Positions 50,107-55,005 of a stretch of 64,000 nucleotides of DNA are shown here, in pieces; within the stretch, counting starts at the first letter, position 1, and each line of letters starts with the position of its first letter. The translations under genes were made by a program, and so were the position numbers. The notes below the pieces were generated by a model. It saw only the letters and a list, made by a program, of their open reading frames with translations. It made no database searches and was not told the origin of the DNA. Source of the stretch: Acidobacteriota bacterium (GTDB lineage: Bacteria; Acidobacteriota; Blastocatellia; Pyrinomonadales; Pyrinomonadaceae); the NCBI GenBank assembly GCA_003223935.1, contig QHXQ01000043.1:62001-126000 (forward strand), in the 5' to 3' direction.

Positions 50107-51060
50107 CTAGTACGCGAGCAAGTCTTTCAACTCCCACACGCGCTTCGTGACCCCGGCCTCCATCGCGGGCGTACATCTCAGCGTCTTGTGGATACGACAG
50201 AAGTTATAGTACGCGAAGTGCAGCGCGTAGGCCGCGCGTAGATTCTCCCGCTTCTTCGAGAACCCGTTGGTCAAGCGCGTCAGGCGACGCATGTGCATCC
50301 TGATGGTTAGGTTCTGCCGCTCGATGTGCGACGTGCAGATCGCCGCCTCGTCAGGCTCGCCGATGCGCGGGTCTTTGATAATCTCCAACACGCGCGACGG
50401 CGAATAGCGTCGCTCACCCTCTGGACTCTGCGAAGGGTGCGCGGCGTGATAGGTCTTGATGAGCCGCGCGTAGTCCACCCGCACGCCCAGACTGAGCGAA
50501 ACCGCGTCCGGGTAAGACTCCCAGCCGTCCGTCGTCAGTTGAAAGTGCCCGGCGGTGGCGCGCTCCAGCTTCTCGATGAAGGCTTCGGTGTCCTCGACGG
50601 TGCGCTGGCCCAGATGCCAAGCCAGCACGAGCTTCGTGTGCCGTTCTATCGCGACGAAGCAGTACGCATCGCCGGTCTCGTCGCCGTAGCCCTTCGCGTT
50701 CTTCGTCTTTTGCTTGCACCAGACGAAGCCCCAGATTTCGTCGGCCTGCACGTCGCGCACCTTAACTTGGCTGATGCGGCGGTCTTGCAGGCGCTCACAT
50801 TTCCGCCCAGCGAGCAGCAGGAGCGAGAGGATCGTTCGCTTCCCGACGCCGGTCACGCGCTCAATGCCTCTGACGCTCATGCCCTCGACCAGCAGATGTA
50901 GGCATGAGAGCGCTCTCTGCACCGAGAGGCGCATCTTGCCGAGCGGTTTGCGATGCCGTTCGATGAAGGTTTTTGTGCAGACCGGACAATACCAGCGTTG
51001 TTGTCTGTATGGATCGTGTCCGTGCCTTTGGCATTTCGACCGACAGTGTATGCAGATCAT
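50107..51060 (-). mobile_element. IS1-family-like transposase (IS element, ends not resolved)
   Basis: This 317-residue protein begins with a zinc-finger segment (CIHCRSKCQRHGHDPYRQQRWYCPVC), followed by a helix-turn-helix (GMSVRGIERVTGVGKRTI) and a DDE-type domain: VQADEIWGFV, LTTDGWESYPDAV and the HIERQNLTIRMHMRRLTR block. This is the layout of IS1-like transposases encoded in a single frame, without the classical frameshift. AAGGGGAAG precedes the ATG. It is intact and plausibly active. I could not find matching terminal inverted repeats; the flanks show a GGTTAGC...GCTAACC hairpin at 51085-51127 and the terminator at 50058. Confidence 0.85.
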
Positions 51061-51313: not shown

Positions 51314-51404
51314 TACTTTATCCCGCCCCAAAGTTTAGCATGGCTACCGTTTGAGCGGCAATCAATTTTTCCCGTAAATTTAACTATTTAGTGCGCTTAC
51401 GACG

Positions 51405-51418
51405 CACCTGTTTAGGTT
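51405..51418. promoter_or_regulatory. XRE-operator-like palindrome, site A
   Basis: CACCTGTTTAGGTT is a variant of the AACCTA-WW-TAGGTT palindrome found near both XRE genes. A shorter relative, ACTATTTAGT, lies at 51383-51392. Confidence 0.5.
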
Positions 51419-51469
51419 ATTATGTCGCCGCCGTCGCGATGCGCGTGCGGCGCAATCTGCGTGACGATG

Positions 51470-51483
51470 TACCTATTTAGGTT
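51470..51483. promoter_or_regulatory. XRE-operator-like palindrome, site B
   Basis: TACCTATTTAGGTT overlaps the last codons of XRE1; on the minus strand CCTAAATAG supplies the final Pro-Lys codons and the stop. Confidence 0.55.
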
Positions 51484-51835
51484 GTTGTGAGCGATAAGAT
51501 TTCATCCGCTTGCGTTTTTTAAGCGAGTCTATACCCATAATCATGTACTTAGCGTGTAGGCCGCCGGGAAGTGATAGCCCATCATCAACCAACACTTCTA
51601 ACGGTATCTGTGCGAGGCGCGCATAGTGCAGAAGAACAATCAGAGGCGGCTCGCGCTCGCCCCGCTCATATTCGGAAATATGGCCGGGGAAAAGTGGCAG
51701 CACGTCGTCACCGGCCGCCTCCATCGCGGCCAGCAGCCGCTCGACCATCTGCTCTTGTGTAAGGGCCAAGTGCAGGCGAATGTAAAAGAGCTTTTCAGGA
51801 AGGCGTCTTGGCATTGGCCGGTGAGAGCGTCCCAT
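51473..51835 (-). CDS. XRE-family helix-turn-helix regulator 1
   Basis: This 120-residue protein has a Cro/C1-type HTH at about 12-75: KLFYIRLHLALTQEQMVERL, an insertion, then ISEYERGEREPPLIVLLHYARLAQIPLEVLVDD. It is paralogous to XRE2 at 54375, sharing the MGR start, the YERGEREPPL-type block and the LLxYARxAxxxxExLxDD end. The start at 51835 has a perfect AGGAGGT 8 bases upstream; that signal lies in an ACCTCCT-GAT-AGGAGGT hairpin. Palindromic sites lie upstream (51881) and across its stop (51470), consistent with autoregulation. Confidence 0.88.
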   Translation of the reverse strand: MGRSHRPMPRRLPEKLFYIRLHLALTQEQMVERLLAAMEAAGDDVLPLFPGHISEYERGEREPPLIVLLHYARLAQIPLEVLVDDGLSLPGGLHAKYMIMGIDSLKKRKRMKSYRSQQPK

Positions 51836-51843
51836 CAGTAATG

Positions 51844-51860
51844 ACCTCCTATCAGGAGGT
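51844..51860 (-). promoter_or_regulatory. Hairpin sequestering the XRE1 Shine-Dalgarno
   Basis: On the minus strand ACCTCCT-GAT-AGGAGGT is a perfect 7-bp stem with a 3-base loop, and AGGAGGT is the ribosome-binding site placed 8 bases before the ATG. Translation of the regulator would be low unless the hairpin is opened. Confidence 0.6.
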
Positions 51861-51880
51861 GGGACAGGTCTCCGCTTGGA

Positions 51881-51905
51881 CACCTATTTAGGTTAAACCT
51901 ATTTT
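51881..51905. promoter_or_regulatory. XRE-operator-like palindrome, site C plus half-site
   Basis: CACCTATTTAGGTT at 51881-51894 is followed by the half-site AACCTATTTT at 51896-51905. It lies about 50 bases upstream of the XRE1 ATG and upstream of the divergent TIR gene, the position expected for an autoregulatory operator. Confidence 0.6.
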
Positions 51906-52161
51906 CAATAATTGAGGCCGACCGGAAGTTATCTAACTGTCCCAGAATTGACTTTGCCATTCCTTACGGCGACCACTGATGTGAGGGTTTATCTTGCCTC
52001 TCTCAGCCCTTGTGTTGCTTGTGAGGCGGCTTGAATGCTGCTCGCATTGTCCATAGCACGTCGCGAATTTTACCACAAACCGGAAATGAACTCATTGGGC
52101 GTGGTTTCCACCTTTTAGGTGATGTACCATCGAGGCGGGCGACAAACAATCAAATTCTGTC

Positions 52162-53292
52162 ATGGCTAAGCGCCGCAAAAAGCAGAGAGTCTTATTGGTC
52201 GGCCTCGACTATTCGGGGCCTATCCGCCGGGGCGTGACCATCGAGACCAAAGGGCTGTGCCGCCCGCAGATCGCGCCCGAGCTGGCCGCCGCCTCGCTCT
52301 ACGACTACGACGTAATCATCATTAACCCGGCCAGCTACTCCCACTTCATCTTCGGCCGACGGGGGCCGCACTCGGACTCGGAGAAAGAGTTGTGGAATCT
52401 AAAGCATGAGAACAACGATCACGATCTGGACAGCGCCTTTGATCGGTGGGGTCGGCAGGACGAGCTGAAGGCGGCCCTTGAGAATGGGACGCGCATCGTC
52501 TGGGTCATGGCGGTCGAGAAGAGAATACATTTCTTCGGCTGGCGCTCGGTCTATCAGGGGTATGTGAGCCACGCGGTTGAGGCGCTGGCCACGGCCGCCA
52601 GCTTTGCGGCGAAGCAATCTGAGAAACTGACCGTTGACAGACCGACACACCCTTTCGCACCTTACTTCAGGCGGCTCACGCGCGACGGCTGGACGCTCTG
52701 CGGCGCGTTCCGTGAGGAGCAAGACTATCTCGTGCTCGCGTCAACGCCGGAGAAGAAGGCGCTGGGGCTGGAGATTGAGGTGGAGGGCGCGCGCGGGTGG
52801 CTCGTCACCCCGCCGCCCTCGGCCGCGGCCCTCCGCCTACTGATCGAGGCGGCAGTTAAGATCAAGCCGCAGCCCGCCCGGCCGCAGTACCACGGCATCT
52901 TCCTCAGCCACACGCACTCGGACAAGCCGTTCGTCCGCCGCTTGAAAGCTGCCCTTAACGAACGCGGCGTCAGCGACGTGTGGGTGGACGAGGCGGAGAT
53001 CATGGTCGGCGACTCTTTAACCAAAAAGATCGAGGAGGGGCTGACCAAGGCCAGATTCTTCGGGGTCGTGCTGTCGCCGCGCTCGGTCAAATCACGCTGG
53101 GTGCAGAAGGAACTGGAGGCGGCAATGAATAAGGAGATCAGGACAGGTTCAGTCGTGGTGCTGCCGCTGCTTTACGAGGAGTGTGAGCTACCGCCGTTTC
53201 TGGAGGGGAAGTTATATGCCGATTTCACGTCGCCGGCGGCGTTCGCCGAGTCGCTGGAAAAACTCCTGAGAAGGCTGGCGTTCACGAGTTAG
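52162..53292 (+). CDS. TIR-domain protein with unknown N-terminal domain (candidate defence NADase)
   Basis: This 376-residue protein has a C-terminal TIR domain from about 243: YHGIFLSHTHSDKPFVRRLKAALNERG, then FFGVVLSPRSVKSRWVQKELEAA, where E317 is at the place of the catalytic Glu of TIR NAD-hydrolases. The first 240 residues have a Rossmann-like start (RVLLVGLDYSGPIRRG) and DYDVIIINPASYSHFIF but match no family I know. Bacterial TIR proteins commonly act in abortive anti-phage systems (for example Thoeris, CBASS, Pycsar). No ThsA or cyclase is adjacent. It is divergent from XRE1 and faces the PIN-like gene. Confidence 0.85.
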   Translation: MAKRRKKQRVLLVGLDYSGPIRRGVTIETKGLCRPQIAPELAAASLYDYDVIIINPASYSHFIFGRRGPHSDSEKELWNLKHENNDHDLDSAFDRWGRQDELKAALENGTRIVWVMAVEKRIHFFGWRSVYQGYVSHAVEALATAASFAAKQSEKLTVDRPTHPFAPYFRRLTRDGWTLCGAFREEQDYLVLASTPEKKALGLEIEVEGARGWLVTPPPSAAALRLLIEAAVKIKPQPARPQYHGIFLSHTHSDKPFVRRLKAALNERGVSDVWVDEAEIMVGDSLTKKIEEGLTKARFFGVVLSPRSVKSRWVQKELEAAMNKEIRTGSVVVLPLLYEECELPPFLEGKLYADFTSPAAFAESLEKLLRRLAFTS

Positions 53293-53337
53293 AAACTCGT
53301 TATAGGTTCGGGCATATAGCGAATAGAATCTGACTCC

Positions 53338-54219
53338 TTATGTTAGACGTGCAAGCAGCTTATGAAGGTGGTCGAGGACTTCAACCCCTTTGTTCGGCAC
53401 TCGGCCATACCAAAAGGCAAAATCGCCGTCATGGGTTACTAAGATGTCCGCTGCGGAGGATAAAAGGGCGTGGTTCAAATCAGGCGGATCGCCTTCGCGT
53501 CGGCGCTTCTTTTCGCTGAACTCTGTAAACACACGGGCATATTGATACGACAAACTTGCGCCGCTGGCGATGGCGAGAGTTTTGAAACTTAACATCCCTT
53601 CAAGCCCGCGCGCCTCACAAGCAGCGAGTAAGCCACCTTGACCACTGTGACTTTCAGCATTTTGAACCAGCTCTCTTAGTCGAGCAATGATCTTCGCTTT
53701 GTAGAAGTCTTCAAATGCCGGTTGTGCATTGCCGAACTCGGCTAGGATTATGGCGCGGTCGTGGGCATTGGCATTGGCGGCCGCAGCATGAAAGGCGGCT
53801 TCTTGTGTTCTTGTGTCGGCTAGGGCCTGTTTCCGTGCTGCGATGTCTCCGGTCGGACTGAACATCCCATCTAAATCGAGAGTGTTTGGCATCAAGGGGT
53901 AAGGGGGGCCATCGCCTTTGGCATAGTTGACGATGTTCAAAAAGAGTAACTCAGGTGGGAATAAGATTACTTCTTCTTGATATAGCAACGACCGGATTAA
54001 AGCCAATTCTTCTTTAGCTGCCGCGGCGGATGGTGCATTGAGGGCGTAAGCAGCTTCTTGAACCTGCACCGCGCTCATCAAGTTGCGAATCTGGCCGTCA
54101 GCTACAGCCGCACGGAGCTTTTCAACGTCGGCAAGAGTAACACCATTGGTCTCAGTTCGCCCGCGCTCAACAGTCAGTATGTGACTCAAAACATTTTTAT
54201 CAAAGTAAACGTCAATCAT
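53338..54219 (-). CDS. PIN-like domain protein (putative RNase)
   Basis: This 293-residue protein begins MIDVYFDKNVLSHIL and has later PIN-type acidic positions in VQVQEAAYAL, DLNHALLSSAADILVTHDGDFAFW. The order Asp, Glu, Asp, Asp fits the PIN metal site, with a large helical insert in the middle. PIN domains are usually RNases, in toxin-antitoxin or defence settings. The ATG at 54219 begins the domain; the frame is open to 54258. It converges on the TIR gene and lies downstream of XRE2 with a perfect 20-bp palindrome between them. Confidence 0.75.
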   Translation of the reverse strand: MIDVYFDKNVLSHILTVERGRTETNGVTLADVEKLRAAVADGQIRNLMSAVQVQEAAYALNAPSAAAAKEELALIRSLLYQEEVILFPPELLFLNIVNYAKGDGPPYPLMPNTLDLDGMFSPTGDIAARKQALADTRTQEAAFHAAAANANAHDRAIILAEFGNAQPAFEDFYKAKIIARLRELVQNAESHSGQGGLLAACEARGLEGMLSFKTLAIASGASLSYQYARVFTEFSEKKRRREGDPPDLNHALLSSAADILVTHDGDFAFWYGRVPNKGVEVLDHLHKLLARLT

Positions 54220-54346
54220 AGTGGCGAGTATAGCAGACCAAGTTTGTGCTCCTTGCACCCGACCTCACGCCAGCAGTAAAGCCATTTCAATTTATGGAGT
54301 AAGCCTCTCACCTATGAAAGAACTCACAATCGGATCGCACTCGACG

Positions 54347-54366
54347 CTTAACCTAAATAGGTTAAG
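54347..54366. promoter_or_regulatory. Perfect palindrome, site D (XRE operator candidate)
   Basis: CTTAACCTAAATAGGTTAAG has perfect 9-bp arms around AA. It lies 9 bases 3' of XRE2 and about 130 bases upstream of the PIN-like gene, and is the most symmetrical of the family. Confidence 0.65.
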
Positions 54367-54374
54367 ACATTTTC

Positions 54375-54716
54375 TCAAACTTTCTTCCCCTTAGTTGAGT
54401 AGTTGTTCCGCGGCGCGGCTGCGCGCCGGACACCTTCACTCTTGCGTCGGGCAGGGAGTTTCGCCGGCAGATCGAGGCGGTCGTCTATGAGGGCTTCGAC
54501 CGAGACGTTGGCCGCCCGCGCATACTCTAAAAGCACCGGCAGCGGCGGCTCCCGCCGCCCCAATTCGTAGCCGGAGATGCTGCTGCGGAACATACCTCCC
54601 GCGTCGCTCAGGCTCAGCCGCGCGAGCATCTCATCTTGGGACAATCCGAGTGCCTGTCGAATGCGGCTCAGCTTCTCCGCAAGGCGGGCTGGCTTGGGGC
54701 GCGGCGCTCTTCCCAT
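54375..54716 (-). CDS. XRE-family helix-turn-helix regulator 2
   Basis: This 113-residue protein is a paralogue of XRE1: MGRAPRPKPARLAEKLSRIRQALGLSQDEMLARLSLSDAG, SSISGYELGRREPPLPVLLEYARAANVSVEALIDD. The HTH covers about 14-70. It lacks XRE1's insertion and has a basic tail. CAGGAGGACAGCCCTG precedes the ATG, resembling the XRE1 leader. A degenerate operator-like core (CTATTTAG, 54777-54784) lies upstream. It probably represses itself and/or the PIN-like gene. Confidence 0.88.
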   Translation of the reverse strand: MGRAPRPKPARLAEKLSRIRQALGLSQDEMLARLSLSDAGGMFRSSISGYELGRREPPLPVLLEYARAANVSVEALIDDRLDLPAKLPARRKSEGVRRAAAPRNNYSTKGKKV

Positions 54717-55005
54717 CAGGGCTGTCCTCCTGACGGGAAAATGGCCTTGGCGGCCCTGACAGCTTGCGCTTGGTAGCTATTTAGTTCTACATTCTCATTG
54801 TGATCGAAGCCCGCCGGAAGCCTGCCCGTTGTTGGCTTCGTGGCGGCGTTCATCACCAGCGCCGCTCAAGCTGTCGTCTCACTCAATCAGCTACCACAGG
54901 TAGTCGTTGGTAGTACGCCGGCTAAGATACCAAAGCGGCCGGCCATCCGTCACCATTACCGATGTGGAGTTAAATAGCCACTTTCGTGATTAAGAGGTAT
55001 TTCGC

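Follow-up and report, generated by a model that had tools for sequence, protein, structure and literature searches.

The window analysed here is a 64-kb stretch of contig QHXQ01000043.1 from a draft Pyrinomonadaceae (Acidobacteriota) genome (5.27 Mb, 88% complete), and it contains a locus in which a TIR-domain gene and a PIN-like gene lie between the genes of two small XRE-family regulators, XRE1 and XRE2. We read this locus as a locally regulated effector unit in which XRE1 would act as an autorepressor with a private operator, controlling the PIN-like gene and probably the TIR gene, and we put the probability of this sequence-based reading at about 50%. Genome-wide pattern searches found the operator pattern ACCTATTTAGG three times, all at the locus (XRE1 3' end, XRE1 leader and before the PIN-like gene), while the reversed control pattern had zero occurrences in the genome and AACCTAWWTAGGTT occurred once. 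The shorter core CTATTTAG is present five times in the window, all at 51384-54784, versus 0.34 expected. The XRE1 leader palindrome ACCTAAATAGGT, at -52 relative to the gene, recurs at the locus and is not significant alone in a shuffle test. When operators of other XRE cassettes were examined for spread to neighbouring genes, 0 extra close copies were found versus 2.2 expected, and the spread is therefore special to this locus. The sites and the promoter-like element are as follows.

51881-51894: XRE1-type operator CACCTATTTAGGTT, inside leader ORF 1 (open reading frame, ORF)
51470-51483: XRE1-type operator TACCTATTTAGGTT, at the 3' end of XRE1
54347-54366: perfect 20-bp palindrome CTTAACCTAAATAGGTTAAG, between XRE2 and the PIN-like gene, 128 bp before the PIN ATG
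51405-51418: weaker site CACCTGTTTAGGTT, downstream of XRE1
51384-51391: core CTATTTAG, its outermost occurrence, downstream of XRE1
54777-54784: core CTATTTAG, in the XRE2 leader
51877-51905, plus strand: promoter-like pair TGGACA-17-TATTTT, facing the TIR gene, with the site at 51881 between its hexamers

The strongest evidence that such palindromes are cognate operators comes from the XRE family as a whole, in which the palindromes vary between paralogues and track the recognition helix. The helix FRSNVSQYEL goes with TGCTAGATAC..GTATCTAGCA in three genomes, YRGHIGEYET and YRGHVGEYET go with TTTGCCCC..GGGGCAAA in two genomes, and TQNRIS goes with AACCG..CGGTT. Across 41 cassettes (719 between-genome pairs), recognition-helix similarity predicts operator similarity with a Mantel r of 0.42, compared with at most 0.18 in 2000 permutations; with similarity over the remainder of the protein taken into account, the partial r is 0.39. 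The XRE1 helix GHISEYER resembles those of relatives with PAHISGYER and PAHVSGYER, whose leaders carry a CCTAAATAGG-type core. If this code is true, it represents a natural library of ~40 repressor-operator pairs whose specificity is readable from a few recognition-helix residues and could be checked directly in band-shift experiments.

The genes of the locus, with the adjoining transposase and the two leader ORFs, are listed below (HTH, helix-turn-helix; aa, amino acids).

51473-51835, minus strand: XRE1, HTH regulator, an ORF with a weak HTH_3 match, member of the XRE family, ATG start at 51835
51835-51960, minus strand: leader ORF 1, 41 codons, TGA stop overlapping the XRE1 ATG
52162-53292, plus strand: TIR-domain protein, 376 aa, Rossmann-like N-terminal half and C-terminal TIR domain with W313/E317
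53338-54219, minus strand: PIN-like protein, 293 aa, called from motifs and a distant relative, every profile below cut-off
54375-54716, minus strand: XRE2, HTH regulator, HTH_3 E = 1.5e-8, ~23 relatives in the genome
54716-54853, minus strand: leader ORF 2, 45 codons, TGA stop overlapping the XRE2 ATG
50107-51060, minus strand: IS1-type transposase, given as context

All four ORFs described in an earlier note on this DNA are present, and two of its observations hold as stated: the TIR and PIN-like genes are convergent, tail to tail, with their ends 45 bp apart, and XRE1 and XRE2 are paralogues (48% identity over 102 aa). The same note placed a regulator on either outer side, and the XREs do flank the pair, but both lie on the minus strand, so that XRE1 is divergent from the TIR gene while XRE2 is upstream of the PIN-like gene and co-directional with it across a 155 bp gap. 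An alternative GTG start for XRE1 at 51883, in the same frame, is possible. Of the accessory features said to adjoin the locus, the insertion sequence (IS) is there, but no strongly AT-rich gene was seen (GC content 49-65% across the region).

XRE2 has ~23 relatives at ~17 places in the source genome, and 45 of 118 genomes in its taxonomic family carry members of this XRE family, while a sample of 347 genomes of the phylum, searched at E 1e-18, yielded no member beyond that taxonomic family. A further 60 XRE loci were fetched for comparison; as the cassettes are related by descent, the counts that follow are of non-independent events. The XREs mostly stand alone or adjoin a receiver-domain gene, and 28 loci (L035, L037, L040, L041, L043, L046 and others) have the XRE divergent from a receiver-only response regulator whose receiver domain was confirmed. 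TIR genes form the second commonest neighbour cluster (the window, L046, L145 and L165, with L142 added on inspection), and adjacent XRE-TIR pairs show a modest excess among the 60 fetched loci, with 3 seen versus ~0.4 expected by arithmetic from the TIR counts in three genomes. No PIN neighbour was found among the ~80 XRE relatives examined. One XRE copy (L045:1438-3356) precedes, in the same orientation, a probable DNA methyltransferase gene recognised by sequence motif only.

A palindrome 30-70 bp upstream of the XRE start was detected in 44 of 73 copies (shuffle test, p <=0.1), centred at -58, -55, -52, -49, -46, -43, -37 or -31. These centres are 2 mod 3 in 41 of the 44, with the other three being of odd length, and the apparent reason for this phase is a reading frame across the leader: one leader frame is open over at least 36 codons in 44/44, versus 1/44 and 11/44 for the other frames, and its stop is usually a TGA that overlaps the XRE ATG. 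We read the leader as a translated, coupled leader ORF of ~36-50 codons, and the leader ORFs of XRE1 and XRE2 (41 and 45 codons) have the same TGA-over-ATG arrangement. The similarity of the two leaders, remarked on previously, is thus real and means more than could be seen from the window sequence alone. Codon statistics did not support a selected microprotein, as variability is not greatest at the third codon position (0.39/0.33/0.36) and the in-frame synonymous share is not the highest; since a short conserved stem with weak covariation also overlaps the leader ORF, its product may not matter. A conserved RNA leader or riboswitch was likewise rejected in favour of the coupled ORF, with no Rfam family found and only 2 of 10 predicted pairs showing a double change. 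Taken over loci L035-L049 and L123-L182, the data suggest a family of paralogous autoregulators whose coupled leader ORFs contain gene-specific palindromes. Tandem XRE copies at L037:926-1939, L041, L043, L138 and L139 carry the conserved leader on the first copy only, and sub-threshold matches to Acido-Lenti-1 (RF01687) were observed near XRE genes at L024:2118-2164, with similar stretches in L011 and L015.

The C-terminal part of the TIR protein (aa 246-369) matches PF13676 (TIR_2) with E = 1.3e-29, one of 20 TIR_2 matches in the source genome. In an alignment of 24 homologues, with which the protein shares 46-56% identity, W313 and E317 are invariant, in agreement with the intact catalytic Glu reported earlier, and the domain is predicted to be an NADase. 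The model of the protein is confident (predicted local distance difference test (pLDDT) score of 86), and its TIR half matches solved AbTir, BtTir and PdTIR structures as closest. The N-terminal half has no Pfam match; while the fold search was dominated by the TIR half, a match to a glutamine-amidotransferase-containing enzyme (8hx8, E = 2.7e-4) hints at a Rossmann-like fold, which we assign tentatively from the model.

Scanning a genome collection with the N-terminal half retrieved 37 loci, mainly in Proteobacteria, with others in Nitrospiraceae and Archangium; adding two loci on plasmids, including a Ti plasmid, brings the family to 39. A homologue of the PIN-like protein or XREs of the window was found at 0 of the 39, and the TIR gene is therefore an independent module elsewhere. 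A ~445-aa protein with an RSAFLHG motif is encoded directly downstream of the TIR gene in 26 of the 39 loci, usually with a few-base overlap, several of these loci being near-identical to one another. This two-gene operon is found on Ti plasmid NC_002377.1 (L054:6016-8465) and at 25 loci among L060-L091. The RSAFLHG motif is an RX4H motif, HEPN-like by eye, in a partner with no Pfam or PADLOC match, and from its sequence the operon is a candidate defence pair.

The PIN-like protein presents the PIN-type order of acidic motifs (D..N, E, D..HA, THD..F) as FDxN, E, DLNHA and VTHDGDF, and a 25% identical relative in genome G143 shares them, from which we infer that it may be an RNase, as previously proposed. 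Profile and structure searches gave no further backing to that proposal: the sole Pfam match, PIN_3, is weak (E = 0.16), no match was found in the PDB, and a single-sequence fold reached a pLDDT of 39. The gene is rare, being single copy in the source genome with two distant relatives among 396 genomes of the phylum, and searches of plasmids and viral contigs found none. Both relatives are near TIR genes, at ~0.9 kb in G143 (two TIR_2 matches in all), where the TIR gene converges on the PIN relative and an AbiV-like gene, and at ~2.8 kb in G360 (17 TIR_2 matches); this nearness exceeds chance, and clustering of defence genes could explain it. At L193:7582-9134, the genes of a PIN-like relative and an AbiV-like protein appear to form an operon, convergent with a TIR gene.

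In the mechanism we propose, an XRE1 dimer would bind the private palindrome ACCTATTTAGGT in its own leader, at its own 3' end and between XRE2 and the PIN-like gene, keeping itself and the PIN-like nuclease low. It would probably also repress the divergent TIR gene, since the hexamers of the promoter-like pair facing that gene flank the leader site. Once repression was lifted, or the TIR N-terminal half activated, the TIR domain would consume NAD+, the PIN-like protein would cleave RNA and the infected or invaded cell would stop growing. XRE2 is a second member of the cassette family, and its own operator would have degenerated; the paired repressors suggested by the earlier note are thus backed by a recurring operator type for XRE1, but by no clear palindrome in the XRE2 leader. 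Nor is the quartet a conserved system, given the TIR family loci, the two distant PIN relatives and an XRE family of ~23 copies; rather, the genes appear to be wired together here through ACCTATTTAGG, and while they do not recur together, pairs of them do, in the TIR genes near both PIN relatives and beside XREs.

Several points weigh against a regulated unit. The promoter-like pair facing the TIR gene is weak, with 4 such matches found versus 1.8 expected; the XRE2 leader has no significant palindrome in the shuffle test; the sites at the XRE1 3' end have no obvious promoter and could be local duplications; the PIN assignment comes from motifs and is unsupported by profile or fold; and at 39 loci elsewhere TIR homologues occur without PIN and XRE. 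That independence of the TIR family, together with the presence of XREs without PIN at ~17 genomic places, the adjoining IS and the two sites side by side downstream of XRE1, would also fit a chance neighbourhood in an accessory island, in which the TIR gene, the PIN-like gene and two self-regulating XREs have no functional linkage and the extra sites arose by local duplication. We consider this unlikely, as the site before the PIN-like gene forms a perfect 20-bp palindrome and is separated from the rest by 2.5 kb that includes the TIR and PIN-like genes, and no other cassette has such operator spread.

It is improbable, in our view, that XRE1 controls only itself, XRE2 and the PIN-like gene, with the TIR protein lying in between as an autonomous effector triggered through its N-terminal domain. 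The positions of the exact sites (XRE1 leader and 3' end, and before the PIN-like gene) would agree with such an arrangement, as would homologues from Ti plasmids and many Proteobacteria that stand alone or with the ~445-aa partner, whereas the site at 51881 coincides with the promoter-like pair facing the TIR gene, which itself occupies the divergent slot held by a receiver gene in 28 other cassettes. More doubtful again is a toxin-antitoxin pair in which XRE2 would be an antitoxin binding a PIN toxin, with TIR and XRE1 as mere neighbours. The absence of a PIN neighbour from ~80 XRE relatives argues against it, as do PIN relatives elsewhere without an XRE of this family, which was not found outside the taxonomic family in the 347-genome sample; the upstream, co-directional position of XRE2 155 bp from the PIN-like gene is in its favour, and in the CapK/CapS work a VapC-like toxin is reported to be under a DNA-binding partner (PMC13373217).

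If the reading of the locus as a unit under XRE1 is true, cell-killing effectors can come under a locus-private repressor through the copying of a short operator, and the TIR/PIN unit is testable by NAD+ and phage assays. A broader proposal, which we offer tentatively as a possibility, is that dozens of paralogous XRE cassettes serve this taxonomic family as orthogonal, address-specific switches, with each operator lying inside a coupled, translated leader ORF, and that one address was copied to neighbouring genes to yield a two-effector defence unit of TIR NADase and PIN-like nuclease matching no known system. No report of the locus, the XRE cassette family or the TIR and HEPN-like pair was found in the open-access literature.

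Among known systems, VapBC likewise combines PIN-type acidic motifs with an adjoining small DNA-binding protein. The VapBC PIN toxin is ~130 aa, whereas the PIN-like protein of the window has 293 aa; there is no VapB-type antitoxin at the locus, the upstream gene being an XRE-family protein 155 bp away, and the XRE relatives do not travel with PIN. The TIR protein passes the Pfam ThsB_TIR cut-off, as would a Thoeris component, but TIR_2 fits it far better and no locus protein matches the ThsA model. The Agrobacterium Ti-plasmid TIR family (WP_010892463) has the same two-part protein, 46-56% identity within the family and the same catalytic residues, with an RSAFLHG (HEPN-like) partner in a two-gene operon in place of the PIN-like gene and XREs of the window. 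RptR, a phage-defence-island repressor that is not an XRE protein and binds the 6-bp TAGCTA (PMC12255303), similarly is a small repressor before defence genes with several palindrome copies near its own gene, but the palindrome of the window locus is longer, paralogue-specific and inside a translated-looking leader ORF. The repressor-beside-effector layout resembles those of CapH/CapP and CapK/CapS (PMC13373217 for the latter), in which a local DNA-binding repressor holds a host-killing immune operon low, and XRE2 alone has a weak capH profile match (E = 2.2e-7); no CapP protease or CapK kinase was recognised among the locus proteins scanned, and operator and effectors differ. The resemblance to RptR and CapK/CapS is one of likeness, not membership, and lies in a local repressor encoded beside the effectors it would hold in check.

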